Positions 412-16,242 of a stretch of 64,000 nucleotides of DNA are shown here, piece by piece. The position numbers and the translations under genes were made by a program. Each line of letters starts with the position of its first letter. The stretch's first letter is position 1. Origin of the DNA: Saccharothrix sp. S26 (lineage in GTDB: Bacteria; Actinomycetota; Actinomycetes; Mycobacteriales; Pseudonocardiaceae); the NCBI RefSeq assembly GCF_021390395.1, contig NZ_JAJUWT010000003.1:310001-374000 (forward strand), written 5' to 3'. The notes below the pieces were generated by a model. It did no database searches and was not told where the DNA came from. It saw nothing but the letters and a program-made list of their open reading frames with translations.

Positions 412-871
412 ACGCCCTCGTCGGCGGCATGGGACGCGCGGTGGCCCTGGGGGTCGCCGTGGCGGTCGGCACGGCGCTGGTGCTGGCCCGCGTGGGCGCG
501 CCGTGGCTGTGGGCGGTCGCGATCGGGTTGCCCGTCGGCGCGTTGGCGCTGCTCGTCGCACGTCTGCCGCGCGCCACGGACGTGCAGTGGGCCCCGCAGC
601 CCACGACCACCTCCACCGCCACGCACGTCCAGGCCAGCACACTGGCGAGCCGCCTCGCCGAAGCCGCCGTCGACCAGGACCGGTTCGCCAAGCGGGTCCA
701 GCCGCGGCTGCGCCGCCTCGCCGAGGCCCGGCTGCGGCAGGTGCACGGCGTGCCCGACCTGCACGACCCGAAGGCACGCGCGGTGCTCGGCGACGAGTTG
801 CACCGCCTGCTCACCGACCCGCAAGCGCCGCTGCCCGAGCCGGCCAGGCTCGCCGACCTGTTGGAGAAGCT

Positions 872-875
<4 letters not shown>
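408..875 (+). CDS. small membrane protein of the MoxR/DUF58 cluster
   Basis: A 155-residue protein starting at a GTG that overlaps the previous stop (GTGA). Residues about 8-50 form two hydrophobic segments separated by a short turn ('VALGVAVAVGTALVLARVG' and 'LWAVAIGLPVGALALLVA'). The remaining 100 residues are soluble, helical and Arg/Leu-rich. No catalytic motif is seen. Its stop overlaps the moxR start by four bases, so it belongs to the same transcript. Similar small two-helix proteins lie between DUF4129 and MoxR genes in related actinobacteria. I cannot give a function beyond membership of this membrane complex-like operon. Confidence 0.75.
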
Positions 876-1849
<974 letters not shown>

Positions 1850-1862
1850 ACCGGCGACGGTC

Positions 1863-3263
1863 ATGAGCCGGGCGGAGCGGCTGCGCGAGGCGTTCACCGG
1901 CGGGCGGGGCGCGCACTGGCACCCCACCGACGCGATGGTGCGCGGCCTCGCGCTGGGCGTGGGCATGGTGGCGCTCGGCGGGCTGCTGCACGAGGTGGAG
2001 CTGGTGCTGTTCGGCGCGCCGCTGCTGATCTCGACGTTGTTGGCGCTGGTCACGCCCGTCACGGGCACGCCGCGGGTCCGGGTGCGGGGCCTGCCGCGCA
2101 CGGGCGAGATCGGCGCGGCGAAGTCGGTGGTGGAGGTGGACCCGGGTGCGGGCGCCGAGGTGATGGCGATCCGGCTGCCGGGCCTCGGCGAGGGCATCGG
2201 CCCGGTGCACCTGGTGTCGGCGTCGGCGCGGGAGATCGAGGTCGTGCTGCGGCGTGACGCGTGGGGCGAGGGCGTCGACCTGCGGCCGGACCACCTGGTG
2301 GCGGGGCCGGACGCGTTGTTCGTGCACGGTCCCGTGACGGCTCCCGAGCGGGGCCGGGTGATCCTGCCGCCGGTCGAGGCGCTGCCCGCCGGGCTGCTGC
2401 CGGCGCGGGCGGTCGGGCTGGTCGGGGCGCACCGGGCGCGGCGGCCGGGCGACTCGGTGGAGCTGCGCGACATCCGGGCGTTCCAGCCGGGCGACCGGCT
2501 GCGGCGGATCGACTGGCGGGTGTCGTTGCGGGCCGGCGGCATGGCCGGGTCGGCCGACGGCACGAACCTGCACGTCCGCGAGCACCACGCGGAGGCCGAC
2601 GCGGACGTCGTGCTGGCGTTGGACACCCGGCTCGACGTCGGCGCGGAGCTGGGTGACTGGGCGGCTCCGGGGCGGGTGGCGTCGGGGCGCGCGCTCGGGC
2701 GGTCGCTCGGCGAGCGGTCGCTGGCGTCCAGGGCGACGACGGTCCGCCCCGGTGGGAGCCTCGACCGGGCGGTGCGGGCGGCGGCGTCGCTGGCGGCCGG
2801 GTACCTGCGGCAGGGCGACCGGGTGGGGCTGGTGGACCTCGGGCGGCCGCAGTTGGGCGCGCGGGCGGGCGTGGGGCGGCGGCAGTTGCTGCGGTTGCGC
2901 AACCAGCTCGTGGTGTGCGCGCGGTCGGCCGGGTGGGCGCAGCGGCCCGTGCTGCGGCCGGAGCAGGTGCCGCACGGCGCGCTGGTGGTGGTGCTGTCGC
3001 CGTTCCTGGACGCCGACGTGGTGGAGCTGGCCGTGCACGCGGCGCGGCGGGGCAACCTGGTGCTGGCGGTGGACGTGCTGCCGTCGCCGTTGCGGGCGGA
3101 CCGCGAGACGCCGTGGGGTGAGAGCGCGTTGAAGGTGATCCGGTTGGAGCACGACGTGCGGCTGGAGGCGATGCGGCAGCACGGCGTGGCGGTGCTGCCG
3201 TGGGGTGCGCCGATCGCGGGCGTGCTGCGTGCCGCCCAGACCGCGCGGCGGGTGTCGCGGTGA
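1863..3263 (+). CDS. DUF58 domain-containing membrane protein
   Basis: A 466-residue protein. Residues about 25-65 hold two hydrophobic helices ('GLALGVGMVALGGLLHEV' and 'LVLFGAPLLISTLLALV'). A beta-rich region follows, then the DUF58 signature 'ELRDIRAFQPGDRLRRIDW' at about residues 200-220. The C-terminal part has a von Willebrand A-like arrangement ('ADVVLALDTR', 'DRVGLVDLG'). DUF58 proteins work with MoxR ATPases, and this gene starts 13 bases after moxR. The role is inferred from the pairing: assembly or activation of an envelope or metal-dependent complex. A 22-bp repeat array begins immediately downstream. Confidence 0.88.
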   Translation: MSRAERLREAFTGGRGAHWHPTDAMVRGLALGVGMVALGGLLHEVELVLFGAPLLISTLLALVTPVTGTPRVRVRGLPRTGEIGAAKSVVEVDPGAGAEVMAIRLPGLGEGIGPVHLVSASAREIEVVLRRDAWGEGVDLRPDHLVAGPDALFVHGPVTAPERGRVILPPVEALPAGLLPARAVGLVGAHRARRPGDSVELRDIRAFQPGDRLRRIDWRVSLRAGGMAGSADGTNLHVREHHAEADADVVLALDTRLDVGAELGDWAAPGRVASGRALGRSLGERSLASRATTVRPGGSLDRAVRAAASLAAGYLRQGDRVGLVDLGRPQLGARAGVGRRQLLRLRNQLVVCARSAGWAQRPVLRPEQVPHGALVVVLSPFLDADVVELAVHAARRGNLVLAVDVLPSPLRADRETPWGESALKVIRLEHDVRLEAMRQHGVAVLPWGAPIAGVLRAAQTARRVSR

Positions 3264-3270
3264 CGCGAAC

Positions 3271-3425
3271 GTGGAGTTCAGGGGGCCTGGGGGTGCGACA
3301 CGCGGGGCGCGGGCGTTCGACACGCGCGTTCCGAGTGTTCAACTCGGGGGTTCTGAACGTAGGACACACGCGGTCTGAACGTAGGACTCTCGCGCGAGTC
3401 CTGCGTTCGGGTGCCGCGTGTCGAA
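3271..3425 (-). repeat. 22-bp register repeat array A (degenerate)
   Basis: Between the DUF58 gene and the next gene lies a degenerate array read on the minus strand. GTAGGAC-type half-motifs fall at 3359 and 3381, the variant unit GTTCAAC at 3337, and weaker copies at 3315, 3293 and 3271, all exactly 22 bp apart. It belongs to the family best seen at 19552. Unlike the other three arrays it does not follow a minus-strand gene, and units are more diverged. No spacers are present, so it is not CRISPR. Confidence 0.8.
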
Positions 3426-3467
3426 CGCTCGGGGTCCGTGGGTTCCACGCTCGGGACGGGGGCGGCG

Positions 3468-3974
3468 GTGCGGGTTGAGCTGGGGGCCGGGTTGCCGGCG
3501 TGGGTGTTGAGGGCGGCGATCGCGGTCGTGGCGGCGGTCGTGGTCGGGGTGCTCGCGGTCAACGGGGTCGAGTGGCCCGCGCTCGTGCTGTACGGGGTGC
3601 TGGTCGTCGCGGCGGTGGCGATCCCCGCGTCCGCCGCCGTGGCGCTGATCATCGGCTACCCGGCGGCGGCGATGGTGTTCGGCGGGGACGAGCGGTCGTG
3701 GCCGAGCGTGCTCGTGCTGGTCGTTCTGCTCCACCTTTTGCACCTTTTGTCGGCTTACGCGGCGCTTCTCCCGATCGGGTCACGCGTTCACCTGGACGCA
3801 CTAAAGGTACCCGCGAAGAGGTTCGCCCTCGTTCAACTCTCCGTGCTCGCCTTCGCGGGCGTGGTCCTCCTGTTGCCGGGCGGCCGAACGGACGAGGCCG
3901 TCGAGGTGGCGGGGCTCGCGTGCGTCGTCGGGCTGGTGGTCGGAGTGGTCCTGCTGATGCGCCGGAAAGGCTGA
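3468..3974 (+). CDS. hypothetical membrane protein, four helices
   Basis: About 168 residues from the GTG at 3468; an upstream ATG at 3411 is possible but would code through the repeat array. Four hydrophobic segments are visible: 'VLRAAIAVVAAVVVGVLAV', 'ALVLYGVLVVAAVAIPA', 'VLVLVVLLHLLHLLSAYA' and 'LACVVGLVVGVVLLM'. A short basic tail (RRKG) ends the protein. No catalytic or binding motif is seen. It is on the same strand as the MoxR/DUF58 cluster but separated by the repeat array. Base composition drops locally around 3720-3790. Function unknown. Confidence 0.65.
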   Translation: MRVELGAGLPAWVLRAAIAVVAAVVVGVLAVNGVEWPALVLYGVLVVAAVAIPASAAVALIIGYPAAAMVFGGDERSWPSVLVLVVLLHLLHLLSAYAALLPIGSRVHLDALKVPAKRFALVQLSVLAFAGVVLLLPGGRTDEAVEVAGLACVVGLVVGVVLLMRRKG

Positions 3975-4144
3975 GGAACCCGGCCCGCCGGCTCAGCGGA
4001 AGCTGACCGTCTGGATCGTTCCTCTCAGCACGTTCACCCGCCGGTGCTGGTCAGGGCGAAGGTGTCGGCAATCACCCGGCGACTGTGGTCACAACGGGCC
4101 CGCTCGATGCGCCGGAAAGCCCCGTGCGGTGCGACCATGTGTGT

Positions 4145-5470
4145 ATGGCTGCTGTGAAGTCGCAACCCACACGGATCGTGATTGTCGGCGGTGGGTACGT
4201 CGGCATGTACACCGCGCTGGGATTGCAGAAGAAGCTGCGTTCCGGCGAGGCGTCCGTCACGGTGATCGACCCTCAGCCGCACATGACCTACCAGCCGTTC
4301 CTCCCCGAGGCCGCGGCCGGTTCCATCGAGCCCCGCCACGTGGTGGTGCCGCTGCGCAAGGTGCTCAAGCGCTGCCACGTCGTCACCGGCCGCGCCACCC
4401 GCATCGAGCACGAGCGCAAGGCCGTCACGGTCGAGCTGGCCGACGGTCACGTCGAGGAGTTCCAGTACGACGTGCTCGTCTCGGCGCTCGGTGCCATCTC
4501 GCGCACCCTGCCCATCCCGGGCCTGCCCGAGGTCGGCATCGGCATGAAGACCATCGGCGAGGCCATCTACCTGCGCAACCACGTGCTGTCGCGGCTCGAC
4601 CAGGCCGCCAGCACCAACGACCCGGAGCTGCGCAGGCGGCTGCTGAGCTTCGTCGTCATCGGCGGCGGGTTCGCGGGCATCGAGACGCTGGCGGAGCTGG
4701 AGGACATGGCCCGCTACGCGCTGCGCTACTACGAGGGCCTCAAGCAGTCCGACATGCACTGGGTGCTGGTCGAGGCCACCGGCCGGATCATGCCCGAGGT
4801 GAGCGCCCGGCTCGGCGTCTACACCGTCGAGCAGCTCGAGAAGCGCGGCATCAAGTGCTACCTCGACACGCGCGTGAAGAGCATGGAGGGCGGCCACGTC
4901 GTCCTGGACGACGGCACCGAGTTCGACTCGGACACCATCATCTGGACCGCGGGCATGAAGGCCAACCCGATGCTGCGCAACACCGACCTGCCGCTCGACG
5001 AGCGCGGCCGGGTCCGCTGCACGGCGGCGATGCAGGTCGTGGGCCTGCCGGGCGTCTGGGCCGCGGGCGACTGCTCGGCCGTGCCGGACCTGTCGCGCAC
5101 CGAGGAGGACCCGACGGCGACCTGCGTGCCCAACGCGCAGCACGCCATCCGCCAGTCCAAGCTGCTGGCCAAGAACATCGTGGCCACGCTGCGCGGCAAG
5201 CAGCCGAAGGACTACTTCCACAAGTACCTGGGCTCGGTCGCGGGCCTGGGCCTGTACAAGGGCGTGGCCGACGTGTTCGGCCTGCGGTTCAAGGGCGTCG
5301 TCGCCTGGTTCATGCACCGCAGCTACCACGTCATGTTCATGCCCACGGTCAACCGCAAGTTCCGGGTGTTCGTGGACTGGACGCAGGCGCTGTTCTCGGG
5401 TCGCGAGGTCGTCGCCCTGGGCCAGATCCACGAGCCGAAGGCCGAGTTCGACCGCGCCACCAAGAGCTGA
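4145..5470 (+). CDS. ndh: type II NADH dehydrogenase (NDH-2)
   Basis: A 441-residue flavoprotein. The first Rossmann motif 'IVGGGYVGMYTALGLQ' lies near the N-terminus (FAD). A second dinucleotide motif 'VVIGGGFAGIETLAELEDMA' near residue 180 binds NADH. The late FAD motif is 'GVWAAGDCSAVPD'. The C-terminal part contains hydrophobic, aromatic segments ('GVVAWFMHRSYHVMFM') consistent with monotopic membrane attachment. NDH-2 passes electrons from NADH to quinone without pumping protons. The ATG at 4145 is preferred over the upstream in-frame ATG at 4085 because homology-like sequence begins there. A strong hairpin follows the stop, so the gene is probably monocistronic. Confidence 0.93.
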   Translation: MAAVKSQPTRIVIVGGGYVGMYTALGLQKKLRSGEASVTVIDPQPHMTYQPFLPEAAAGSIEPRHVVVPLRKVLKRCHVVTGRATRIEHERKAVTVELADGHVEEFQYDVLVSALGAISRTLPIPGLPEVGIGMKTIGEAIYLRNHVLSRLDQAASTNDPELRRRLLSFVVIGGGFAGIETLAELEDMARYALRYYEGLKQSDMHWVLVEATGRIMPEVSARLGVYTVEQLEKRGIKCYLDTRVKSMEGGHVVLDDGTEFDSDTIIWTAGMKANPMLRNTDLPLDERGRVRCTAAMQVVGLPGVWAAGDCSAVPDLSRTEEDPTATCVPNAQHAIRQSKLLAKNIVATLRGKQPKDYFHKYLGSVAGLGLYKGVADVFGLRFKGVVAWFMHRSYHVMFMPTVNRKFRVFVDWTQALFSGREVVALGQIHEPKAEFDRATKS

Positions 5471-5477
5471 TCGCGAA

Positions 5478-5523
5478 CGGCCCCGCGCACGCTGCCCCGT
5501 TCGGTGCGGCAGGCGTGGGGCCG
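5478..5523 (+). terminator. intrinsic terminator-like hairpin after ndh
   Basis: CGGCCCC at 5478 pairs with GGGGCCG at 5517-5523, with further pairing inside (CACGC / GCGTG-type). It sits 8 bases after the ndh stop and separates ndh from the peptide locus. There is no clear T-run, as is usual in this phylum. Confidence 0.7.
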
Positions 5524-5579
5524 TCTGGCGGAGCCCTCTCACTTGAGCCCCCATACGGGCTAACGCAGGGCCAGTCGCC

Positions 5580-5608
5580 TTGACATTGCGTAACGTGAAC
5601 CCGAGAAT
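5580..5608 (+). promoter_or_regulatory. sigma-70-type promoter for the peptide locus
   Basis: A perfect -35 hexamer TTGACA (5580-5585), a 17-bp spacer and a -10-like GAGAAT (5603-5608) stand about 55 bases before the small peptide gene. Such a full consensus -35 is uncommon in this GC-rich sequence. The ribosome binding site GAGAGGTG lies at 5650-5657. Confidence 0.6.
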
Positions 5609-5663
5609 ACAGCTGGTGTATCGCCTAAATGTGTGATGCATCAGTGGGAGAGAGGTGACCGCG

Positions 5664-5786
5664 ATGTCGCTTGAGGAGCTGGCCGCACAGCTTCGCCGCG
5701 GTGAGATCGAGGATCGCGCGCTGGCGGAGTACTCCGCGGAGTACGCCACCGCCGAAAAGCGTTTTTGCAGCAAGAAAGACGACTGA
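5664..5786 (+). CDS. 40-residue peptide, probable RiPP precursor
   Basis: A short gene encoding 40 residues. The start ATG at 5664 is preceded by GAGAGGTG with 6 bases spacing, and the stop (5784-5786) is three bases before the ATP-grasp gene. Residues 1-20 ('MSLEELAAQLRRGEIEDRAL') are charged and helical, like a leader. Residues 23-40 are 'YSAEYATAEKRFCSKKDD', with a near-repeat AEY(S/A)AEY-type segment, one Cys and a run of Ser, Lys and Asp. Those are residues that ATP-grasp ligases of graspetides join as esters or amides. No known peptide family is recognised. That it is the substrate of the two downstream enzymes is inference from tight linkage, size and the shared promoter. Confidence 0.75.
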   Translation: MSLEELAAQLRRGEIEDRALAEYSAEYATAEKRFCSKKDD

Positions 5787-5789
5787 GCC

Positions 5790-6908
5790 ATGTCCGTCTC
5801 CGGGTGGGGGAACGAGACCGTTCCCCCACCCGAGGCCGCCAGACCGGTGAAACAGCCGCCGCTGCTGCTCCAAGGCCAGGACTACCTCTTCCGGTCGCAA
5901 CCCAAGTGCCTGGACTTCCAGGAGCAGGTGCACCGGCTCGGCATGGTGGACGAGGGCGACGGCAGCCCCGTGCCGTGCGTGCTGGTCCTCGCCCGCGCCG
6001 CCGACATGGAGATGAACGAGCTCTCCATCGCGCTCGCCGAACGCGGCATCCGGATGGCCCGCGTCGACGCCGACCGCTCCGCCGACCTGCCGCTGACCGT
6101 CTACACCGACCAGCCGCTGCTGGAGCTCGACCGCTGGCTGCTGCGCCCGCTGCTGGTGTGGCGCAGGCACTTCGAGCTGACCGCCCTGCCCCACGAGCCC
6201 GGCACGCTGGCCGGCGCCTACGCGGTGGACCAGTGGGGCGCGGTCGCCGACTGGCTGTCCAGCCGAGGCGACTGGGCGCACGTCAACCCCAGCCGCAACA
6301 CCTCCCACCTCAACCGGCTCACCCAGCTCGCCGACGCCTCCGCGTTCGGCCTGCGCGTGCCGCGCACCACGGTCACCACCCGCCCCGGCCGCACCCGGCC
6401 CGGCGGCGGCCGGTGCATCGTCAAGACCTCCGGCCGCCACCTGCTCGAACCGCGCCCCGGCATGCAGCACGGCCTGTTCCCGCGCCCGCTGGAGACCAGC
6501 CGGTCCGGTGACGTGCCCGAGTCCGCGCCGGTGATCGTGCAGGAGTACGTGCCCTCCGACACCGAGCTGCGCGTGTTCGTGGTGGGCGAGCGGTGCCTGG
6601 CGTTCCAGGTCGACAAGCTCGACCCGGCGCAGCTGTGGGTCGACCCCGAGGCCGTCCGCGTCACGCCCGTCGACGTGCCGACGTCGCTGACCGACCGGCT
6701 GCTCGCGCTGGCCAGGCACTGGCGGTTGCAGGTGGCCGCGTTCGACCTGCTCGTCTCGGGCGGCGACCACGTGTTCCTGGAGGTCAACGTCAACTGCGAC
6801 TGGCGGTGGTTCGAGCACCGGGCGCAGGACTCGCGGGTGTCCGACGCCGTGCACGAGTGGGTGGCGGCGCGCTTCAAGGAGCTGCTGGGTGCGGGCAAAG
6901 GTCGCTGA
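5790..6908 (+). CDS. ATP-grasp peptide ligase (graspetide-maturase-like)
   Basis: A 372-residue ATP-grasp enzyme. The central segment 'NPSRNTSHLNRLTQLADA' followed by 'LRVPRTTVT' matches the layout of MvdC/MvdD-type ligases. The ATP-binding lysine strand is 'CIVKTSGRHLLEPRPG' (about residue 210), and 'VIVQEYVPSDTELRVFVVG' follows. The metal-binding end is 'VFLEVNVNCDWRWFE' near residues 327-341, where family members have FLE(I/V)NPNG. These enzymes activate Asp/Glu side chains and join them to Ser, Thr or Lys in a precursor peptide. The gene lies three bases after the 40-residue peptide gene, and its end overlaps the SagB-like gene by 20 bases. Substrate and bond type are inferred, not shown. 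Confidence 0.85.
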   Translation: MSVSGWGNETVPPPEAARPVKQPPLLLQGQDYLFRSQPKCLDFQEQVHRLGMVDEGDGSPVPCVLVLARAADMEMNELSIALAERGIRMARVDADRSADLPLTVYTDQPLLELDRWLLRPLLVWRRHFELTALPHEPGTLAGAYAVDQWGAVADWLSSRGDWAHVNPSRNTSHLNRLTQLADASAFGLRVPRTTVTTRPGRTRPGGGRCIVKTSGRHLLEPRPGMQHGLFPRPLETSRSGDVPESAPVIVQEYVPSDTELRVFVVGERCLAFQVDKLDPAQLWVDPEAVRVTPVDVPTSLTDRLLALARHWRLQVAAFDLLVSGGDHVFLEVNVNCDWRWFEHRAQDSRVSDAVHEWVAARFKELLGAGKGR

Positions 6909-7959
6909 GCACGCGACGCTGTTCTACGCCGACGGCGCCGTGGTCTGGGACGACTACCTGCACCACCGGCAGTTCGCGATCAGTGAGACCGCCGAGCTGC
7001 TGTGCCGCAAGTTCACCGAGTTCACCGACGTCGACGAGATGCTCGCGCCGCTGGCCGAGGACGACCGGGCGGCGCTGCGCAAGGTGTTCGACGAGCTGGT
7101 CGAGGCCGGTGTGCTGATCGTCGAGGGCTCGCCCGAGCACGAGGAGGAACGGCGGCTGCTCGCCGCGTGGGGCGAGTGGGGCACCTCCGCGCGGCACTTC
7201 CACTTCGCCAGCCGCACGCTGGCCGACGCGCCGTACCAGGGCTCGGAGGAGCACGACGCGCTGCTGGACGCCAAGCTGGCCGCCGCGCCGCCGCCCGCGC
7301 CGTTCCGCAGCCTGGGCCGCACCTCCGTGCTGCTGCCGCGGCTGGACGGCACGTCGAAGTGGGCGCGGGCCGGTCTGCTGGACGTACTGCTGTCCCGCCG
7401 CACGACGCGCGAGTTCGGGCCGGGGCCGCTGCCGCTGACGAAGGTCGCGGAGCTGCTGGCCGTGCTGGGCGGGCCGTCGCCGGTGCGGTCGCGCATCGGG
7501 CGGTCCGGCACGGTGTTCAAGACCAGCCCGTCCGGCGGCGGGCGGCACCCGGTCGAGCTGTACGCGCACGTGCGCGCCGTCCACGGGCTGGAGCCGGGCT
7601 GGTACCACTACGACGGGCTCGCGCACGCGCTGGAGCCCATCGGGGTGGCGTGGGGCCCGGCGGAGATGACCGCGGCGGCGGGCGACCAGGAGTGGGTCGG
7701 GCAGGCGCCGTTGGTCCTCGCGTACACCGGTGTCCTCGAACGGACCAGATGGCGTTACGACACGTCACGTGCTTACCGCGTTGTGCAAATGGACGTAGGG
7801 CATCTGTCCCAAACGGCTTATCTGGTTGCTACGGCAATGGGTTTTGGTATCGGCTTCACCGCAGCATTGCGGGATGAGCTCGTCGAACAAGCCCTCGACT
7901 GTGATGCTTATCACGAAGTTGTACTCGGTCTGAGCGCCTTGGGCCCATTACCCGAATGA
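6889..7959 (+). CDS. SagB-type nitroreductase-family peptide dehydrogenase
   Basis: A 356-residue protein starting at a GTG inside the end of the ATP-grasp gene. Residues about 1-90 form a helical/winged-helix-like region ('LFYADGAVVWDDYLHHRQF', 'ALRKVFDELVEAGVLIVEG') that may be a PqqD-like peptide-recognition domain. Residues about 160-356 are the FMN nitroreductase fold: 'LSRRTTREFGPGPLPL', 'TSPSGGGRHPVELYAHV', 'GWYHYDGLAHALEPI'. SagB proteins oxidise azolines to azoles, but no YcaO cyclodehydratase is encoded nearby, so the reaction here is open. The last 75 codons have clearly lower GC and different codon use, including TTA at 7948, just before the tRNA gene. Confidence 0.82.
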   Translation: MRAKVAEHATLFYADGAVVWDDYLHHRQFAISETAELLCRKFTEFTDVDEMLAPLAEDDRAALRKVFDELVEAGVLIVEGSPEHEEERRLLAAWGEWGTSARHFHFASRTLADAPYQGSEEHDALLDAKLAAAPPPAPFRSLGRTSVLLPRLDGTSKWARAGLLDVLLSRRTTREFGPGPLPLTKVAELLAVLGGPSPVRSRIGRSGTVFKTSPSGGGRHPVELYAHVRAVHGLEPGWYHYDGLAHALEPIGVAWGPAEMTAAAGDQEWVGQAPLVLAYTGVLERTRWRYDTSRAYRVVQMDVGHLSQTAYLVATAMGFGIGFTAALRDELVEQALDCDAYHEVVLGLSALGPLPE

Positions 7960-8046
7960 GCGCAATAGCGGATCTCATTGAGCCGTGCGGGGGACTTCTT
8001 CTGAACCTGCCCCACGAACGCACGGTAACCGCTTAGGCTCCCCGCT

Positions 8047-8120
8047 GCCCCCGTAGCCCAACCGGTAGAGGCAGGCTCCTTAAAAGAGTCACAGTACGGG
8101 TTCGAATCCCGTCGGGGGCA
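8047..8120 (+). tRNA. unusual class I tRNA with anticodon UAA (Leu-type codon UUA)
   Basis: The 74-base gene folds as a cloverleaf. The acceptor GCCCCCG pairs perfectly with CGGGGGC and the discriminator base is A8120. The D-arm has GCC/GGC pairs and the GG pair in its loop. The anticodon stem GGCTC/GAGTC (one G-U) encloses loop CTTAAAA, giving anticodon UAA. The variable loop is only five bases (ACAGT), and the T-arm is ACGGG TTCGAAT CCCGT. CCA is not encoded. Bacterial tRNA-Leu normally has a long class II variable arm, so this is not the standard tRNA-Leu(UAA) (bldA type). It may be a leucine-inserting oddity, a decayed copy, or a tRNA used in peptide modification. Confidence 0.85.
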
Positions 8121-8139
8121 CGTTCGGCGCCAGATTGAC

Positions 8140-8160
8140 TTCACCCATCTGCTGGGTGAA
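8140..8160 (+). terminator. hairpin after the tRNA
   Basis: TTCACCCA (8140-8147) and TGGGTGAA (8153-8160) form a perfect 8-bp stem with a 5-base loop, 19 bases after the tRNA. It probably marks the 3' end of the tRNA transcript or takes part in its processing. Confidence 0.5.
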
Positions 8161-8195
8161 CAGGCAGCGCTGGGCCGTGCCGGTCACTCCGCGAG

Positions 8196-8227
8196 TCATC
8201 CGGTCGGACCTTCGTCCGACCGGATGA
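8196..8227. terminator. bidirectional terminator hairpin
   Basis: A perfect 13-bp stem (TCATCCGGTCGGA, 8196-8208, with its complement at 8215-8227) and a 6-base loop. It lies between the rightward tRNA and the leftward DUF885 gene that ends at 8240, so it can serve both. Confidence 0.75.
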
Positions 8228-8239
8228 CCACGTTCGGGA

Positions 8240-9868
8240 TCAGCGCGTGCGGACCCACTCCGAGACGACCTCGTCCAGCACGGCCAGCGGCAGCGGACCG
8301 CCGCCCAGCAGCACGTCGTGGAAGTCGCGGATGTCGAAGCGCTCGCCCAGCTCCCGCTCGGCCGCCGCCCGGATCCGCAGGATCTCCAGCCTGCCCACCA
8401 TGTACGCCAGCGCCTGGCCGGGCGCGGCGATGTACCGGTCGACCTCGTTCTCGATCTCGACCAGCGCCAGCGGCGTGTTCCGCAACAGGTACTCCACCGC
8501 CTGCTCGCGGCTCCACCCGTGCGCGTGCAGCCCGGTGTCCACCACGAGGCGCCCCGCGCGCATCGAGTCCATGGCCAGCATCCCGAGCCGCGCCACGTCG
8601 TCGGAGTACAGGCCCATCTCGTCGGCCAGCCGCTCGGTGTACAGGCCCCAGCCCTCCAGGTACGCGGTCACGTGCGCGACCCGGCGCAGCATCGGCAGCT
8701 CGGTGAGCTGCTGCGCCAGCGTGATCTGGAAGTGGTGACCGGGCACGGCCTCGTGGAACGCGATGGCCTCGGCCTGGTAGCGGAACCGCTCCTGCACCCG
8801 GTAGGTGTTGGCGTAGTACGTGCCCGCGCGCAGCCCGTCCGGAGTGGGCGGCGAGTAGTAGGCGATCGGCGCGCCGGGCGCGTCGGCCGCGGGCACCGGC
8901 TCGACCCGGCAGCGCTGCTCGGGCACCCGGCCGAACCAGCGCGGCGCAGCCTGCTCCGCCCTGGCCACGGCCTCGCGCGCGGCCGTGATCAGCTCGTCCT
9001 CGGTGCTCCAGCGCAGCGCCGGGTCGGTGCGCATCCGCTCCAGCACCTCGGCCACGTCGGAGGTGCCGAACACCCGTTGCCCCAGCTCGGCGTACTCCTC
9101 CGCCAGGCCCGCCATCACGTCCAGGCCGGTCTGGTGCAGCTCCTTCGGCGTGCGGTTGGTCGAGGTCTGGACCCGGGTGAGCGCCGCGTACATCGCCTCG
9201 CCGCCGGGCAGCCGACCCAGGCCCACCCGGTCGGACGGGCGGCCCTCGATGCCGGCGACGACCTCCCGGTAGGCGGCGAACGCGGGCCGCACCACGTCGG
9301 CCAGCAGCCGCCGCCGCTCGGCGTCGAACGCCTCGCCGCCCGCCGGACGGGCCAGCGGGTCCTGGTCGGCGGCCAGGTAGCGGTCCAGGTGCGCCACGGC
9401 GGCGTCCACGAGGTGCCGCACCGGCGTGCGGCCGGCCGCCACGCCCGCCAGGTGGCGGTCGGCGACGCGGCGCAGGAACTCGGGGATCGCGGCGAGCCGG
9501 TCCAGGTAGGCCCGCTCGGAGTCCGGCCCGGACAGCACGGTCGTCGGCATGACCGTCAGCACCTCGCCCGCCGGGGCGAAGAACGAGTCGGTGATCGTGT
9601 ACTCGACGCCCAGCGCGTCGATCTGGTCCACGATCGTCTCGGCCTGCTGCACGACCACCGCCCGCGTCACGGGGTCGTCGTCCGCGGGCAGGGCGCGCGC
9701 CCGCTCGGCGATGTCCACCGCCCGTGCCCGCGCGGCCTGCTCGGTCTCCAGCCGGTGGTCGGCCAGCAGGTGGTCGTAGCCCGGCACGCCGTAGACGGTC
9801 GCCCCCAGCGGCGACAACGTGAACATCAGGTCGAGCAGTTCGTCGGCCAACTCCGCGGTCGTGCCCAT
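8240..9868 (-). CDS. DUF885 family putative metallopeptidase
   Basis: A 542-residue protein of the DUF885 family. The zinc-site-like motif 'AIAFHEAVPGHHFQ' (HExxPGHH) is about two-thirds along, and 'VTAYLEGWGLYTERLADEMG' follows with the conserved Glu. Family members resemble gluzincin peptidases; substrates are unknown. The ATG at 9868 is preferred over the in-frame GTG six bases earlier because GGGGG stands five bases upstream. No signal peptide is seen, so it is probably cytoplasmic. It is the last gene in a minus-strand series beginning with the PQQ operon, but the gap after the regulator gene holds its own AT-rich stretch. A second, shorter member of the family is at 45575. Confidence 0.82.
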   Translation of the reverse strand: MGTTAELADELLDLMFTLSPLGATVYGVPGYDHLLADHRLETEQAARARAVDIAERARALPADDDPVTRAVVVQQAETIVDQIDALGVEYTITDSFFAPAGEVLTVMPTTVLSGPDSERAYLDRLAAIPEFLRRVADRHLAGVAAGRTPVRHLVDAAVAHLDRYLAADQDPLARPAGGEAFDAERRRLLADVVRPAFAAYREVVAGIEGRPSDRVGLGRLPGGEAMYAALTRVQTSTNRTPKELHQTGLDVMAGLAEEYAELGQRVFGTSDVAEVLERMRTDPALRWSTEDELITAAREAVARAEQAAPRWFGRVPEQRCRVEPVPAADAPGAPIAYYSPPTPDGLRAGTYYANTYRVQERFRYQAEAIAFHEAVPGHHFQITLAQQLTELPMLRRVAHVTAYLEGWGLYTERLADEMGLYSDDVARLGMLAMDSMRAGRLVVDTGLHAHGWSREQAVEYLLRNTPLALVEIENEVDRYIAAPGQALAYMVGRLEILRIRAAAERELGERFDIRDFHDVLLGGGPLPLAVLDEVVSEWVRTR

Positions 9869-9922
9869 GCGCACCCCCTGGTCGTCGTGGAAACCAAGAT
9901 GGTACTTAGCCTAAGAAACGAT

Positions 9923-10570
9923 TTACACCCGGTCCAAATAGGCGAGCACGGCGAGCACCCGCCGGTTGTCGTCCTCGGACAACGGCAGGTCCAACTTGCC
10001 GAAGATGTTGGCGATGTGTTTGCCGACCGCTTTCTCGGTGACGAACAGCCGCGCGGCGATCGCGCCGTTGGAACGGCCCTCCGCCATCAGCGACAGCACT
10101 TCCCGCTCGCGCGGGGTCAACGTGGTCAGCGGCTGGTCGCGCGCGCCGCGGGCGAGCAGTTGGTTGATGACCTCGGGGTCCATCGCGGTGCCGCCGGTGG
10201 CGACCCGGCGAATGGCGTCCACGAACTGCCGGACGTCCGACACCCGGTCCTTGAGCAGGTAGCCCACCGCGCCGCCGCGGTCGGACAGCAGCTCCCGCGC
10301 GTACAGCTGCTCCACGTACTGCGAGAGGACGAGGATCGGCAGGCCGGGCACCCGCTTGCGCGCCTCGATGGCCGCCCGCAGACCCTCGTCGGTGAACGTG
10401 GGCGGCAGGCGCACGTCGACCACCGCCACATCCGGGCGGTGGTCGACCAGGGCCTTGAGCAGCGCGGGACCGGAGTCGACCGCCTCCACCACGTCGAAGT
10501 CGTAGGCCTCGAGGAGCCGGATCAGGCCGTCCCGGAGGAGGACGAGGTCTTCACCGAGGACAACTCGCAC
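9923..10570 (-). CDS. NarL/LuxR-type response regulator
   Basis: A 215-residue response regulator. The receiver domain (residues 1-120) has the acidic pocket 'LGED' and phospho-acceptor region 'VAVVDVRLPP', then 'LPILVLSQY'. The C-terminal LuxR helix-turn-helix reads 'LTPREREVLSLMAEGRSNGAIAARLFVTEKAVGKH'. The start at 10570 gives the standard N-terminus ('MRVVLGEDLVLLRDG') and makes the gene overlap the sensor kinase end by 49 bases, so the pair is co-translated. The target genes are not shown; the neighbouring PQQ operon and DUF885 gene are the obvious candidates. Confidence 0.93.
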   Translation of the reverse strand: MRVVLGEDLVLLRDGLIRLLEAYDFDVVEAVDSGPALLKALVDHRPDVAVVDVRLPPTFTDEGLRAAIEARKRVPGLPILVLSQYVEQLYARELLSDRGGAVGYLLKDRVSDVRQFVDAIRRVATGGTAMDPEVINQLLARGARDQPLTTLTPREREVLSLMAEGRSNGAIAARLFVTEKAVGKHIANIFGKLDLPLSEDDNRRVLAVLAYLDRV

Positions 10571-11799
10571 GGCAGCTCCATGGTCACGATGGTCGGCCCG
10601 CCCACCGGGCTCGCGATGCCGAGTGTGCCGTCGAACGCGGCCAGCCTGCGCTCGATCCCGCGCAACCCGCCACCCTCGGCTGCCTCCGCGCCACCGCGCC
10701 CGTCATCGCCGATCATCAACGACAGCCGCCCGCCCGCGTGCCGGACCCGCACCCACGCGGCCGTCGCACCGCTGTGCTTGGCCACGTTCGTCAGCGTCTC
10801 GGCCACCGCGAAGTAGGCCGCCGACTCGACCGGCGCCTCCGGCCGCCCGGCCAGCTCCAGGTCCACCTCCACCGGCAGCGGGTGCGCCAGCGCCAACGCG
10901 CGCAGCGCGCCGTCCAGCCCGCGGTCGGCCAGCACCGGCGGGTGGATGCCGCGCACCAGGTGCCGCAGCTCGGCCAACGCCTGCGTGGACGTCTGGCGCG
11001 CCTCCGCCAGCAGTTCCTGCGCGGCTTTCGGGTCACGGGACAGCAGCTCCTCGGCCATGCCCAGGCTCAGGCCCAGCGCGACCAGCCTGGCCTGCGCGCC
11101 GTCGTGCAGGTCCCGTTCGATCCGGCGCAGCTCGGCGGCCTGCGCGTCCACGGTGTCGGCCCGCGAGTCGGCCAGCACCCGCACCCGGTCGGTCAGGGCG
11201 GCGGTGGTGCTCGGCGCGAGCAGCTTGCGGGCGACGGTCGCGTGCAGCCGGGCGGCGCGCGGGGTGGCCCACCACGCCAGCACCAGGAAGCCGATGCCCA
11301 GCAGCGGCGCGAGCACGAAGTTGCCCGGCGTGTCGTAGCCGATCGCCACGTAGTAGACGCGCCCGTGGTCCAGCCAGATCACCGGGTACACGAACCCCAG
11401 CACGCCGTTGATCCACAACGCGGCCGGCAGCACGCCGCAGAGGACGCCGACGATCGCGTTGACCGGCAGGAACGCCAGGTCGCGCCACGTCGCCGGGTCG
11501 GTGGCGATGGTGCGGACCCTGGTCATCGGGCCCCGGTTGACGGGCAGCCGGTACGGCGCGGGGATGTCCACCTCCAGCACCCGTGACGCCCACCGGCGGA
11601 AGAACCCGGTGTAGCGGCGGGCCAGCGCGGTGACCAGCAGCAGCAACGGCACGCCCACGGTCACCAGGATCAACGGGTAGGCGTAGAGCTGGAGCGGGAT
11701 CAGCGCCAGCCCCGCGACGCACAGCGCCGCCCTCGCCAACCCCAGCGCGGCCTGCGTGAGCCGGGCGCGCGCGGCCCGTACCAGGTCGTGGTCCGTCAT
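10522..11799 (-). CDS. sensor histidine kinase (HisKA_3 type)
   Basis: A 425-residue membrane kinase. Hydrophobic helices occupy about residues 15-60 and 115-190 (including 'ILVTVGVPLLLLVTAL'). The dimerisation/phospho-acceptor helix is 'RRIERDLHDGAQARLVALGL', with the acceptor His in 'LHDGAQ'. The ATP-binding domain has 'TNVAKHSGATAAWVRV' (N box), 'IGDDGRGG' (D box) and 'GGLRGIERRLAAFDG' (G box). This architecture pairs with NarL-type regulators such as the one overlapping its 3' end. No extracellular sensor domain is evident, so the signal may be membrane-intrinsic. It starts 60 bases after pqqB on the same strand. Confidence 0.92.
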   Translation of the reverse strand: MTDHDLVRAARARLTQAALGLARAALCVAGLALIPLQLYAYPLILVTVGVPLLLLVTALARRYTGFFRRWASRVLEVDIPAPYRLPVNRGPMTRVRTIATDPATWRDLAFLPVNAIVGVLCGVLPAALWINGVLGFVYPVIWLDHGRVYYVAIGYDTPGNFVLAPLLGIGFLVLAWWATPRAARLHATVARKLLAPSTTAALTDRVRVLADSRADTVDAQAAELRRIERDLHDGAQARLVALGLSLGMAEELLSRDPKAAQELLAEARQTSTQALAELRHLVRGIHPPVLADRGLDGALRALALAHPLPVEVDLELAGRPEAPVESAAYFAVAETLTNVAKHSGATAAWVRVRHAGGRLSLMIGDDGRGGAEAAEGGGLRGIERRLAAFDGTLGIASPVGGPTIVTMELPCELSSVKTSSSSGTA

Positions 11800-11859
11800 G
11801 GCGTCGATTGTTCCGGCTGACCACAGCCGAATCGGTGGGCTTAACCCCCCAATGCGGCC

Positions 11860-12735
11860 CTAGAGCTCGATCACCGTGCCGTCGCCGACGACCTCCACGC
11901 CCGCCTCGGCGATCTTCGCGCGTTCCGGCGACGCCGGGTCCAGCACCGGGTTGGTGTTGTTGAGGTGGGTGTAGATCCGCCGGGTCGACGGGTGCCGGCG
12001 CAGCTCCGGCAGGCTGTGCGCGATCGGCAGGTGCCCCATCGCGGCCTGCCCGCTCGGCCCGCCGGTGACCGAGCCCATCTCCGACGGCGCGGCGAACGTG
12101 CCGTCCAGCAGCACCACATCGGCCTCCGCCACCAGCGCGTCGAACCCCGCGGGCCAGGACGCCAGGCACGGCGCGTACAGCAGCACGCCGCCGGTGGCCG
12201 GGTCGCGGAACCGGTAGGCCACCACCCAGTGGCCCGCCACCGGCGAGTCGGCCGCGTAACGGGGCCGCTTGCCGCTCACCGGGAACGCGGTCACCTCCAG
12301 CCCACCCGCGAGCACGACCGGCCGCCCCGGCTCGACCTGCCGCCACGACCACTCGCCGTACGCGGCCAGCACCGCCCGCGTGGGCGCCAGCGCGTGCAGC
12401 ACGGTCGCGGGCGCGTGGACCTCCAGCCCGGGTGCGCCGCGCAGCACCGCCAGGCCCAGCGTGTGGTCCAGCTCGGCGTCGGTGAACAGCACCCCGCGCA
12501 CCGGCGTCTGGCGCGGCCCGGGACCGGGCGCGAGCGCCGGCGTGGCGGCGAGCTGCGCCCCGAGGTCCGGCGAGGCGTTGACCAGCCACCACCGGGCGCC
12601 GTCCCCACTCACCGCCACCGAGTCCTGCGTGCGCGCGGGCAACCGCCCGTCCCGCACGGCCGCGCACGGCCCGCACGCGCAGTTCCACTGCGGCACGCCA
12701 CCACCGGCGGCCGTGCCGAGCACCACCGCCCTCAC
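11860..12735 (-). CDS. pqqB: PQQ biosynthesis protein PqqB
   Basis: A 291-residue metallo-beta-lactamase-fold protein. The start is the GTG at 12735, which overlaps the pqqE stop (GTGA) and gives the family N-terminus 'VRAVVLGTAAGGGVPQWNC'. The metal-site region is 'LFTDAELDHTLGLAVL', where typical members keep an atypical HxHxDH-like motif. The Cys-rich segment 'WNCACGPCAA' is characteristic of PqqB, which is proposed to hydroxylate a tyrosine in PQQ maturation or aid PQQ handling. Length is slightly below the usual 300. It is the last pqq gene of the operon. Confidence 0.92.
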   Translation of the reverse strand: MRAVVLGTAAGGGVPQWNCACGPCAAVRDGRLPARTQDSVAVSGDGARWWLVNASPDLGAQLAATPALAPGPGPRQTPVRGVLFTDAELDHTLGLAVLRGAPGLEVHAPATVLHALAPTRAVLAAYGEWSWRQVEPGRPVVLAGGLEVTAFPVSGKRPRYAADSPVAGHWVVAYRFRDPATGGVLLYAPCLASWPAGFDALVAEADVVLLDGTFAAPSEMGSVTGGPSGQAAMGHLPIAHSLPELRRHPSTRRIYTHLNNTNPVLDPASPERAKIAEAGVEVVGDGTVIEL

Positions 12736-13805
12736 CGCACGACCGCCCGGTGCTCGACGGGCGCGTCCGCCGCGCCGGCCAGGATCCGGTCCACCACGCC
12801 CCGATGCGGCGACAGCGTGCACACCGGGTCGGTCGCCGCCGCGTCACCGGTGAGCTGGAACGCCTGGCAGCGGCACCCGCCGAAGTCCACCTCGCGCCGC
12901 GCGCACGACCGGCACGGCTCGCGCATCCAGTCGAAGCCCCGGTAGGCGGTGAACGCGGGCGAGGAGTGCCAGATCTCGGCCAACGGCCGGTCCCGCACGT
13001 TCTCCACGCCCAGCCCGTCGATCACGCCCGCCGCCGGGCACGGCAGCACGTCGCCGTCCGGCGTCACGGTGAGCTGCCGCGCGCCCCACCCGTGCATGCA
13101 CGGCTTGGGGTGCGCCTCGTGGTGGTCGGCGACGACGTAGACGATCTCCATGCCCGACCGCGACCGCGCCGCCTCCACCGCCTCACCCGCCCGCGCCACC
13201 TGCTCGCGCGTCGGCAGCAGCGCGGCCCGGTTGCGCAGCGCCCACCCGTAGTACTGGGTGTTGGCCAGCTCCAACCGGTCCGCGCCCATCCGCTCGGCCA
13301 GCGCGACGAGCGCGTCGACGTGGTCGACGTTGAGCCGGTGCAGCACCACGTTCACGGTCAGCGGCAGCCCGGCGGCGCGCACGGCCTCGGCCGCGCGGAG
13401 CTTGGGCTCGAACGCCCTCACCCCGGCGATCAGGTTCGCGCCCGCCTCGTCCGCGTCCTGCACGGACAGCTGCACGTGGTCGACGCCGCGCAGCGCGGCC
13501 AGCCGTTCGGGGGTGAGCCCCAGGCCGCTGGTCACGAGGTTCACGTAGCAGCCGAGCCCGGCCGCGTGCGCGACCAGCTCCGGCAGGTCCTTGCGCGCCA
13601 ACGGTTCCCCGCCCGACAGGTGCACCTGGAGCACGCCCAACGCGCGGGCCTGGTCGAACACCGCGCACCACCGGGCGGTGTCCAGCTCGTCGCCGCGCCC
13701 GACCAGGTCCACCGGGTTGGAGCAGTACCCGCAGCGCAGCGGGCACCGGTGGGTCAGCTCGGCGAGCAGCCCGAACGGCGCGTCCGCCTGCGGCGCCTCA
13801 CCCAT
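12732..13805 (-). CDS. pqqE: PQQ biosynthesis radical SAM enzyme PqqE
   Basis: A 357-residue radical SAM/SPASM protein. The radical SAM cluster motif is 'CPLRCGYC' (CxxxCxxC) near residue 19, followed by 'VHLSGGEPL'. The C-terminal SPASM region carries several Cys: 'PKPCMHGWG', 'DVLPCPAAG' and 'EPCRSCARREVDFGGCRC', fit for auxiliary FeS clusters. PqqE makes the C-C bond between Glu and Tyr side chains of PqqA. It overlaps pqqD by eight bases and pqqB by four, so expression is tightly coupled. Length is typical. Confidence 0.95.
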   Translation of the reverse strand: MGEAPQADAPFGLLAELTHRCPLRCGYCSNPVDLVGRGDELDTARWCAVFDQARALGVLQVHLSGGEPLARKDLPELVAHAAGLGCYVNLVTSGLGLTPERLAALRGVDHVQLSVQDADEAGANLIAGVRAFEPKLRAAEAVRAAGLPLTVNVVLHRLNVDHVDALVALAERMGADRLELANTQYYGWALRNRAALLPTREQVARAGEAVEAARSRSGMEIVYVVADHHEAHPKPCMHGWGARQLTVTPDGDVLPCPAAGVIDGLGVENVRDRPLAEIWHSSPAFTAYRGFDWMREPCRSCARREVDFGGCRCQAFQLTGDAAATDPVCTLSPHRGVVDRILAGAADAPVEHRAVVR

Positions 13806-14067
13806 CGACGTCCACCACCCGCCGCGCCACCAGCCGGTCGACGAGCTCGGCCACGTCGTCCGCCCGCACCCCGTCGAACTCCTCGGCCAGCCGGGCCGCG
13901 ATGCCCTGGACGGACGTGCGGCCGTCGCACAGGCCGACCACCGCCGCCGCGGTCTCGTTGAGCACCAGCACGCCTTCCGGGAACAGCACCACGTGGCTCT
14001 CCCGCGTCGGGTCGTACGCCGCCTTCACCCCGCGGCGCAGGCGCGGCACCGCGTCCGGGGCCGTCAT
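13798..14067 (-). CDS. pqqD: PQQ peptide chaperone PqqD
   Basis: An 89-residue protein starting at ATG 14067, which overlaps the pqqC stop (ATGA); the frame is open upstream but without support. The sequence 'LRRGVKAAYDPTRESHVVLFPEG' then 'LNETAAAVVGLCDG' and 'VADLVDRL'-like C-terminus is classic PqqD, a winged-helix RiPP recognition element. It presents PqqA to PqqE. Length matches the family (about 90). Confidence 0.95.
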   Translation of the reverse strand: MTAPDAVPRLRRGVKAAYDPTRESHVVLFPEGVLVLNETAAAVVGLCDGRTSVQGIAARLAEEFDGVRADDVAELVDRLVARRVVDVDG

Positions 14068-14837
14068 GAGTGGTAGTCCACGGCATCCAGCAGGGCGTTC
14101 AGCACGTCGCACTTGAACGCCAGCGCGGCGACCGCCGCCTCCTGCTGCTCGCGCGTGCGGCAGTGGCGCACCACGATGTCCACAGTGGACTTCCCTTCGT
14201 CGGCGACCACCCGCAGCCGGCGGGTGAAGTAGGCGAAGCCCTCCTCGGCGATCCACGGGTAGTGCGCCCGCATGTCGACCAGCCGCCGCGCCATCAGGCC
14301 GCGGGAGAACATCTCGGTCAGCCCGGACGCCACCGCCTCCACCCACGGCCGGGTGCGGGCGAACGTCACGTAGGCGTCCACGGCGAACCGCGTGCCGGGC
14401 AGCACGTGCCGCTCGTCGAGCACTTCACCGCGGGTCAGCCCGAGCGCCTCGGCCAGCCGCAGCCAGTCCTCCGCGCCGCCCTCGCCGGGCGCGCTGCCGT
14501 CGTGCCAGACGATGCGCTCCCGCCACACCCGGCGGACCTCGACGTCCGGGCAGTTGGCCAGGATCGCGGCGTCCTTGCGCGGGATGGCCCGCTGGTAGTA
14601 CCACCGGTTGGCCGCCCACAGCCGCAGTTCCCGCTCGCTCAACCGGCCCTCGTGCAGCCGGAGGTGGAACGGGTGGCGGTCCCAGTAGCGGGGTGCGAGG
14701 CCACGCAGGCGCGCGGTGAACTCGGCGGGGGACAGCAGCGCGGTGTCGAACGCTTGAGGCACCGGCGGATCGGGCACGGGTGGATCGGACACGGGCGAGC
14801 CGGGCATCAGCGACCCGGGCAGCACGGGGTTGGGCAC
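14064..14837 (-). CDS. pqqC: pyrroloquinoline-quinone synthase PqqC
   Basis: A 257-residue cofactor-less oxidase that performs the last ring closure and oxidation to PQQ. Recognisable segments are 'YWDRHPFHLRLHEGRLS', 'WAANRWYYQRAIPRKDAAILAN', 'VDAYVTFARTRPWVEAVASGLTE' and 'ADEGKSTVDIV'. The first 25 residues are a low-complexity Pro/Asp/Val stretch that repeats 'DPPVP'; they lie before the conserved domain, so the true start may be a little downstream. It follows pqqA by 69 bases and overlaps pqqD by four. Confidence 0.94.
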   Translation of the reverse strand: MPNPVLPGSLMPGSPVSDPPVPDPPVPQAFDTALLSPAEFTARLRGLAPRYWDRHPFHLRLHEGRLSERELRLWAANRWYYQRAIPRKDAAILANCPDVEVRRVWRERIVWHDGSAPGEGGAEDWLRLAEALGLTRGEVLDERHVLPGTRFAVDAYVTFARTRPWVEAVASGLTEMFSRGLMARRLVDMRAHYPWIAEEGFAYFTRRLRVVADEGKSTVDIVVRHCRTREQQEAAVAALAFKCDVLNALLDAVDYHS

Positions 14838-14906
14838 GACGGGAGGGCACCTCTCGGTACGCGGTGCCGCGCCCGTCCCCGGCCGGGTCGGGCGCGGCGG
14901 GCGGGC

Positions 14907-15002
14907 TCAGCGGCGAGCGGCGTAAGCGGTGACTTCCATCGGGGTGTCGACGTCCCGGAAATCGGGCTTCACCCAGGGGCGCTTCTCGGGCTCGGTGGTC
15001 AT
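14907..15002 (-). CDS. pqqA: PQQ precursor peptide PqqA
   Basis: A 31-residue peptide beginning 'MTTEPEKRPWVKPDFRDVD' and containing 'TPMEVTAYAARR'. Glu23 and Tyr27 have the E-x3-Y spacing whose side chains are joined by PqqE and become PQQ. 'KPDF' and 'MEVTAY' are typical of PqqA. It heads the operon pqqACDEB on the minus strand, 69 bases before pqqC. No peptidase gene (pqqF/G) for releasing the cross-linked dipeptide is present in the operon. Confidence 0.93.
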   Translation of the reverse strand: MTTEPEKRPWVKPDFRDVDTPMEVTAYAARR

Positions 15003-15078
15003 GCGCAACTCCTCGGACGCGTGGTGCTTCTCCGTGGGGCGGCGGTAACCCACCGTAGAGCTTCCGGCGGGCACCGCG

Positions 15079-16242
15079 CTAGTTCCGGGCGGCGGGCATG
15101 CGCCTCAACTGTTCCAGCACCACCGGATCCTGCAACTGCATCCACTGGATCACCTCCGTATAGGTGGCGCACACCGTTTCAGGCTTGACACACACCTCCC
15201 CGAGGAAGCTCTCCACCGCGTTGCTGAACGCGCCGCCCGCCCACTCGTTGAAGTGGTTGCCGATCACGATCGGCGCGCGGTTGCCGTTGACCGCCGCCTG
15301 GTGCACCGACCGGTACGTGTCCAGCACGATCCGGGTGTAGTCGGCGGCCTTCTCCGGTTCCTCCTTCGCGCCGTTGAGCGCGTACCAGAGGTTGAAGTCC
15401 ATCATCACGACCTGCTTGCCCAGGGCGGGCACGCGCACCTCCGGCATGGGGAACTCCCACAGGCCCTCGTGCACGTACGGCCAGACCACGCCGAGGCTGA
15501 CGTGGCTGGTGTCGTAGGCCAGGCCGTGCCCGCGCATCGCCGGGAACGCCTGCGGCCAGTCGCCCTCCAGGCACGGCGTCCGACCGCCGCGCACGGCCGC
15601 CGGGTCCAGCTTGAACCCCTGCCGCCTGGCCTTCTCCACGATCGCGAAGAACTGGTCGAGCTCCCGGTTCCACTGCTCGGTGCTCCAGGTGCCGACGTTC
15701 GGCTCGTCACCGACGCAGAAGTGCCCGTTGTAGTGCGTGCCGATCTCGTGGCCCGCGTCGATGGCCGCGTTGAGGTAGCCGATGCGCAGCGCCACGTCCG
15801 CGCGGCTGCCGCCGAACCCGATCGACGAGTAGCCGGACCGGTGGCCGGGGCCGGTGTAGGTCGCGCCCTCGTCGTCGGGCACCAGGTACACGCCCGACAG
15901 CAGGCCGGTGACGTGGGCGTTCACCCGTTCGGCGATCGGCATGATCCGGTCCCAGTGCGGCTTGGACGCCGCGCCGTCGAACGAGAACAGCACGAACTGC
16001 GGCGGCTTCTCGCCGGGCAGCATCCGCCGCATCCACGCCGGCGGCGAGGCCGAGGCGGGCACGGTCGGCGCGGCGGCGGCGCTGGTGCTGCCGGAGGTGC
16101 GCGGCGCCATCGGCAGCGGTGCGGCCAGGTCGCCCACGTCGTTGCCCGGTCCGGGTTCGCGGGCACCCAGCACGGCCAGCACCACCAGGGTCAGCGCCAG
16201 CGCGACGCCCGTGCTCAACCAGCCCCATCGCTTCACAACCAC
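15079..16242 (-). CDS. membrane-anchored polysaccharide deacetylase-like protein
   Basis: A 387-residue protein with an N-terminal anchor or signal ('STGVALALTLVVLAVLGA', residues about 10-27) and a Ser/Ala/Pro linker. The catalytic part starts with 'QFVLFSFDGAASK' (the NodB-type Asp motif) and continues with 'GHEIGTHYNGHFC' (the His motif). Later motifs include 'AYDTSHVSLGVVWP' and 'IVIGNHFNEW'. It should act outside the membrane on wall polysaccharide or related glycans. The start codon could also be one of the neighbouring GTG codons. It is separated from pqqA by 76 bases and probably belongs to a different unit. Confidence 0.85.
   Translation of the reverse strand: MVVKRWGWLSTGVALALTLVVLAVLGAREPGPGNDVGDLAAPLPMAPRTSGSTSAAAAPTVPASASPPAWMRRMLPGEKPPQFVLFSFDGAASKPHWDRIMPIAERVNAHVTGLLSGVYLVPDDEGATYTGPGHRSGYSSIGFGGSRADVALRIGYLNAAIDAGHEIGTHYNGHFCVGDEPNVGTWSTEQWNRELDQFFAIVEKARRQGFKLDPAAVRGGRTPCLEGDWPQAFPAMRGHGLAYDTSHVSLGVVWPYVHEGLWEFPMPEVRVPALGKQVVMMDFNLWYALNGAKEEPEKAADYTRIVLDTYRSVHQAAVNGNRAPIVIGNHFNEWAGGAFSNAVESFLGEVCVKPETVCATYTEVIQWMQLQDPVVLEQLRRMPAARN

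Follow-up and report, generated by a model that had tools for sequence, protein, structure and literature searches.

The 64,000-nucleotide stretch of DNA that we analysed from the soil actinobacterium Saccharothrix sp. S26 (the window) carries, between positions 5580 and 7959 of its + strand, three genes behind a shared promoter which we read, on balance, as a maturation locus for a ribosomally synthesised and post-translationally modified peptide (RiPP): its core would be a short precursor and an ATP-grasp ligase, an amide would be formed in the peptide tail, and oxidation by a SagB-type enzyme would be an optional step. The locus is real and conserved, was predicted before in outline, and appears new in its details. 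An earlier note, made from the DNA alone, had proposed a RiPP pathway here, and its placing of the peptide gene, the ATP-grasp gene, the overlapping SagB gene and their common promoter is confirmed throughout. The precursor gene (5664-5786; MSLEELAAQLRRGEIEDRALAEYSAEYATAEKRFCSKKDD) encodes 40 residues with the leader LAEYSAEY and the tail SKKDD, and its ATG at 5664 is preceded by a purine-rich stretch of the ribosome-binding type; the ligase gene (5790-6908, 372 residues) starts 3 bases past the peptide stop, and the SagB/ThcOx-type oxidase gene (6889-7959, 356 residues) overlaps the ligase gene by 20 bases.

The RiPP-type reading is borne out by the conservation of the peptide. A scan of public genomes returned 73 related loci, of which a contig-end fragment (L103) was dropped, leaving 72 with upstream DNA. 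Looking for a conserved peptide upstream of homologous ligases, the check that the earlier note had asked for, finds one in all 72 (tblastn, with no condition on the peptide end; weakest E-value 0.008, in L075), and a second script, which works with coordinates, re-located all 72 at 39-40 residues. As this script required a DD ending, the statement that the peptide always ends in KDD rests on the tblastn peptides read to their stop codon: 71 end in KKDD and one in RKDD, the last three residues are invariant among the 38 distinct sequences, and the tail codons vary silently (AAA/AAG at -3, GAC/GAT at -1). Indeed, the ratio of nonsynonymous to synonymous polymorphism (pN/pS), computed over sequence pairs that are not independent, is 0.25 over the 48 peptides of 40 residues and 0.37 over the 24 of 39 residues, and over the last four codons it is 0.006 and 0.0, respectively. 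Considering the upstream homologue in 72/72 loci together with this low pN/pS, the peptide gene is not a chance frame; its profile matches are all sub-threshold (E-value 0.024 in Pfam and 0.081 in NCBIfam). The distance from peptide to aligned ligase runs from a 4-base overlap up to 256 bases, with 548 in L063, where the ligase frame is much extended at its N-terminus. In the window, the SKKDD tail supplies both a nucleophile (Lys or Ser) and a side-chain acid (Asp). None of the Cys, Ser or Thr positions is invariant, and we rejected an azole at the Cys of FCSKKDD, since a Cys at -6 occurs in only two of the 38 distinct peptides.

Peptide and ligase also occur together across genomes. We scanned 200 genomes of the family (Pseudonocardiaceae), 396 of the phylum and 394 of the class, the latter two scans scoring five candidates per genome, such that distant relatives may be missed. 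Within the family, the ligase (E-value below 1e-50) is found in 72/200 genomes and the peptide (E-value below 1e-10) in 71/200, all 71 falling within the 72 and on the same contig and strand as the ligase; the lone ligase genome without a peptide, G011, has its ligase cut at the contig start. The two lie no more than some 0.3 kb apart, but for G021 and G059, with gaps of about 0.9 and 1.0 kb. Inheritance of the locus is family-wide and apparently vertical. The ligase of the window is 98% identical to that of S. carnea. One locus recorded as Nocardia sp. NRRL S-836 (L099) falls among Lentzea in the ligase tree, and is perhaps mislabelled. The promoter is shared as well: at 5580-5608 (+ strand), TTGACA, a 17-nucleotide spacer and GAGAAT form a single sigma-70-type match of 10/12, with 0.1 expected in shuffles, and the block is kept in an alignment of relatives. 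TTGACA starts 82-98 bases 5' of the peptide start in 68 of the 72 relatives (shuffle rate 0.019), three more have TTGACT, and L090 has neither.

The third gene is far less constant. Only 21 of the 72 named loci have SagB next to the ligase, and the other 51 have none there (L050 and L055 are counted as lacking it with only some 200-240 bases of DNA following their ligase), so peptide and ligase are the core unit and SagB is an accessory, not the integral partner first supposed. The 200-genome set, whose species overlap with the named loci, likewise has SagB beside the ligase in 21/72 ligase genomes; there, ligase-adjacent SagB genes have E-values of 2e-111 or lower, apart from those of G192 (4e-78) and G061 (where the gene is split), and the best SagB match in SagB-less ligase genomes reaches 2e-82 (G126, 45% identity). 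On a ligase tree of 76 rows, the distribution of SagB needs at least five changes, three of them forced by the starred branches, on what is a quick tree with long outgroup branches and a count that is blind to gain versus loss. In a Saccharothrix locus (G184, L112:7007-7438), a 143-codon open frame that is SagB-like at both ends follows an intact ligase. Given this remnant, and SagB in the distant trios of peptide, ligase and oxidase described below, SagB looks ancestral and repeatedly lost, which is the simpler reading.

What kind of oxidase is it? The window SagB passes TIGR03605 (112.6 bits against a cut-off of 78.4), and its best NCBIfam match is TIGR04511, SagB-related dehydrogenase 2, at 162.8 bits over residues 58-352, below that family's cut-off of 240; the partners that we take to accompany the TIGR04511 family are not among the window neighbours scanned. 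It shares its fold with the azoline oxidases ThcOx, McbC and SagB, including the N-terminal region of ThcOx, and has Trp-Arg-Tyr where ThcOx has Trp-Lys-Tyr. From its topology, the N-terminal domain may be akin to a RiPP recognition element (RRE). Unlike the SagB of azole RiPPs, such as linear azoline-containing peptides and cyanobactins, this one has no YcaO in its locus and no conserved Cys, Ser or Thr in the tail. The earlier note had called YcaO absent, which holds at the locus and not for the genome, where a single YcaO lies on another contig. Nevertheless, YcaO is not needed for the trio system, as no match was found in five of 16 chosen trio genomes; the other 11, that of the window included, have at least one elsewhere.

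The ligase is nearest to graspetide synthetases in both sequence and fold, with 17-22% identity to MdnC, AMdnB, CdnC, PsnB and PruB in structure alignments, and like them is encoded with a small precursor. Its best NCBIfam match is TIGR04187 (2.9e-26, 92.4 bits against a cut-off of 350), and its scores also lie far below the graspetide-ligase cut-offs, at 55 against 425 for MvdC and 51.4 against 475 for MvdD. Asp319, Glu331 and Asn333, presumably metal-site residues, are invariant across the eight ligases compared. Neither the ligase nor SagB has a PADLOC defence-system match, and no plasmid-borne copy was matched in a plasmid collection; a phage origin was rejected, the ligase having only a weak RimK-like PHROG match and SagB none.

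The pairing of ATP-grasp with SagB, which had been taken as undescribed, has already been published as a prediction. In the accessible sections of Makarova et al. 2022 (PMC8939145), branch-6 ATP-grasp loci are described with a SagB-like nitroreductase and predicted precursor clusters 367 and 1115, whose members are without the usual graspetide motifs (GG or Phhx(1,2)h), and the branch is suspected to lie outside the graspetide class. The window locus shares with these loci the ATP-grasp enzyme, the SagB-like enzyme and a short precursor with neither GG nor Phhx(1,2)h, and is likely identical to them in type, a match made by description and not by sequence; what goes beyond those sections is that the KKDD tail is invariant, that SagB is patchy, that a Lys follows the leader motif and that some genomes have no YcaO. 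Our searches, judged by titles and the beginnings of abstracts and covering few subscription journals, found no other description of ATP-grasp with SagB, and the available part of PMC12710340 names both enzymes only as search terms. Neither did we find an experiment on such a locus in the literature searched, which leaves most subscription journals outside its coverage.

Distant loci, in other families and another class, show the same gene order as the window, and their tails are informative. In L104, a divergent trio within the family of the window, the 52-residue peptide ends in KSCHGG; a trio of the same genus as L104, L142, has a peptide ending in CGKGCH and is followed by a major facilitator superfamily gene; and a trio in another family, L145, ends in CKGCHGG. 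Two trios from another class, L124 and L123 (the SagB of the latter running off the contig), end in KKDN and KKDS, and two Streptomyces ligase loci, L122 and L177, in NKSETE and NKSESE, with no SagB match seen nearby. The tails CKSCHGG and CKGCHGG of L104 and L145 share a CxxCH pattern and a GG end. Across the nine peptides compared, there is a common plan: hydrophobic-xx-hydrophobic-xxx-Tyr in the leader, a Lys 8-11 residues past the Tyr, and the C-terminus 11-14 residues beyond it. The leader motif was first noticed by eye, and the distant peptides were likewise chosen at first by inspecting short frames; applied as a fixed rule to every short frame within some 700 bases upstream, the leader-Lys-end pattern appears in 72/72 family loci and 7/7 distant loci, in the latter each time in the named peptide only. 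It appears in 0/6 loci of the next-nearest ligases, 0/21 of further graspetide-type ligases (the ligase starts of these 27 controls being in several cases rounded) and 0/2413 random stretches of the same loci; two weak phylum-scan matches (L120 and L121) were left out of the comparisons.

Two further observations concern loci outside this group. Three of the next-nearest ligases without SagB (L146, L147 and L150) have short frames 5' of position 1501 that end in TPC or PPC, perhaps another type of precursor. Nine SagB-like genes, 39-44% identical, have no ATP-grasp match in the fetched DNA (L105 at 5057-6294, L106, L107, L108, L109, L110, L111, L114 and L115). The same leader motif, minus that Lys, occurs in 7/7 peptides picked by eye from short frames upstream of such genes, outside the fixed-rule search (shuffle rates 0.016-0.09 singly), and eight of the nine loci (not L108) hold a large gene of 970-1103 residues, which is a BTAD regulator in the three that were scanned. 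These are possibly a separate small RiPP type.

How might the core unit work? We propose that the helical leader motif would be recognised by the ligase as well as by SagB (where there is one), the latter using its RRE-like domain. With ATP, the ligase would convert a carboxylate to an acyl phosphate and then to an amide within the last few residues, with the amine in the side chain of the conserved Lys as the most likely acceptor. The peptide itself could supply the carboxylate, from Asp or from the C-terminus, or a small partner molecule could do so, and SagB, where it has been kept, would oxidise the modified tail (a two-electron step with flavin mononucleotide) without any YcaO.

The strongest rival, which we hold to be possible and clearly less probable, is that of a plain graspetide, in which a small Lys-Asp side-chain lactam forms within KKDD, for instance from Lys -4 to Asp -1, and SagB serves as late tailoring. 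The kinship of the ligase fits well, and KKDD does supply both amine and acid; corallotide, in the part of its description available (PMC13097080), sets a precedent in that a Lys-Asp isopeptide made by an ATP-grasp enzyme acting on Lys is later oxidised, albeit in Corallococcus, on repeated KxxxD motifs and by a 2-oxoglutarate-iron oxygenase. However, a lactam to an Asp or Glu side chain leaves the acid-free tails unexplained: relatives end in KKDN and KKDS, and in L104, L142 and L145 the final 11 residues are free of Asp and Glu (the nearest in L145 is an Asp at -12). Moreover, a four-residue ring would probably be tight, and the usual graspetide motifs are missing from clusters 367 and 1115. 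As the nucleophile-acid pair is not kept in every relative, the textbook graspetide linkage would be one candidate only, and the side-chain cross-link that the earlier note took as the implied product is but one option.

Alternatively, the peptide could be a scaffold: the ligase would join an external amine or amino acid to the C-terminus, or an external acid to the Lys, SagB would oxidise it, and the small molecule would be cut off and the peptide recycled. PEARL pathways work by such a logic. The free C-terminus at its steady distance from the leader Tyr in all nine peptides, a last residue that differs between clades, and the fact that we identified no exporter or linked leader peptidase in the window would all agree with this. 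Yet the only tested window neighbour that recurs in all 72 loci is an NDH-2-like pyridine nucleotide-disulphide oxidoreductase (NDH; 4085-5470, + strand), no gene for making or releasing a partner stands out, and the tail side chains are near-invariant within the family, which a mere scaffold would not need; we consider it unlikely. That the locus is no RiPP at all, and the peptide a small conserved protein that regulates or partners another, such as the NDH upstream of it in 72/72 loci, with the enzymes acting elsewhere, is very improbable, as all 13 family genomes that we selected for having no close ligase (G020 among them, with a weak match of 7e-9 to a ligase of this type) carry close NDH homologues (65-73% identity), and peptide and ligase stay together in the distant loci, where the fetched DNA, which reaches down to 1.5 kb on a side in L145, gives no NDH match.

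Several points weigh against our own preference for a core of peptide and ligase with an optional oxidase. We infer all its chemical steps, the recognition of the leader and the role of the product; what we observe is the gene order, the conservation and co-occurrence of peptide and ligase, selection on the tail, the patchiness of SagB, and kinship in sequence and fold. The structure model of SagB is of modest confidence (mean predicted local distance difference test score 63.9), so that the RRE-like domain rests on topology, and SagB-less loci keep the same tail and leader, with nothing in the peptide to mark the action of SagB. The fixed rule was derived from peptides that it then found, leaving only its zero rates independent (it re-found the ligase-linked distant peptides as sole matches); the distant peptides represent no more than about four lineages outside the home clade, and the six next-nearest ligases (E-value about 1e-79 to 1e-82) have neither the pattern nor SagB, which makes the group narrow. 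Lastly, that a product is released at all is assumed, since we identified neither an exporter nor a linked peptidase at the locus in the window.

The wider neighbourhood adds little to the system. NDH was rejected as a functional partner on account of the 13/13 genomes without a close ligase, and is treated as neighbourhood. The next gene after SagB is a tRNA-Leu (8047-8121), and the next protein gene is convergent (8240-9874, - strand) and encodes a DUF885 protein, a family that we take to be peptidase-like; a DUF885 match is present in 17/72 related loci. As to the first statement that neither transporter nor dedicated peptidase is adjacent, Pfam finds no transporter among the ten neighbour proteins scanned (503-16242, two of them without a Pfam match). 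About 4 kb downstream of the locus lie PqqB/PqqE/PqqC-like genes (11860-14837, - strand). PqqB matches occur in 23/72 related loci within the fetched flank, and PqqE-like genes are common across the whole family; with 17/72 ligase genomes lacking a PqqE match below 1e-50, these pyrroloquinoline quinone (PQQ) genes were rejected as a needed partner and kept as shared neighbourhood.

What, then, could the product be? A tail that hardly varies and an apparently vertical inheritance throughout the family speak for a single conserved product, serving a housekeeping or signalling function there, and not for a fast-evolving antibiotic. It is tempting, if rather doubtful, to go further and see here a conserved Pseudonocardiaceae ATP-grasp RiPP belonging to a wider group, with the ligase acting on the tail Lys and SagB working without YcaO, whose near-invariant tail would yield a small molecule of general use, be it a cofactor, a metal binder or a signal, comparable to PQQ or mycofactocin.

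RiPP loci are often fast-changing and hop between strains; here, the tail is near-fixed across many genera, the ligase is retained and the oxidase is variable, and the fixed tail and retained ligase point to a conserved function. The related species with and without SagB are a natural experiment. The locus also provides a SagB that is seemingly active without YcaO, and the acid-free tails let chemists ask what a graspetide-type ligase does without a side-chain acid. Finally, the precursor pattern can be used for mining further loci of this kind.
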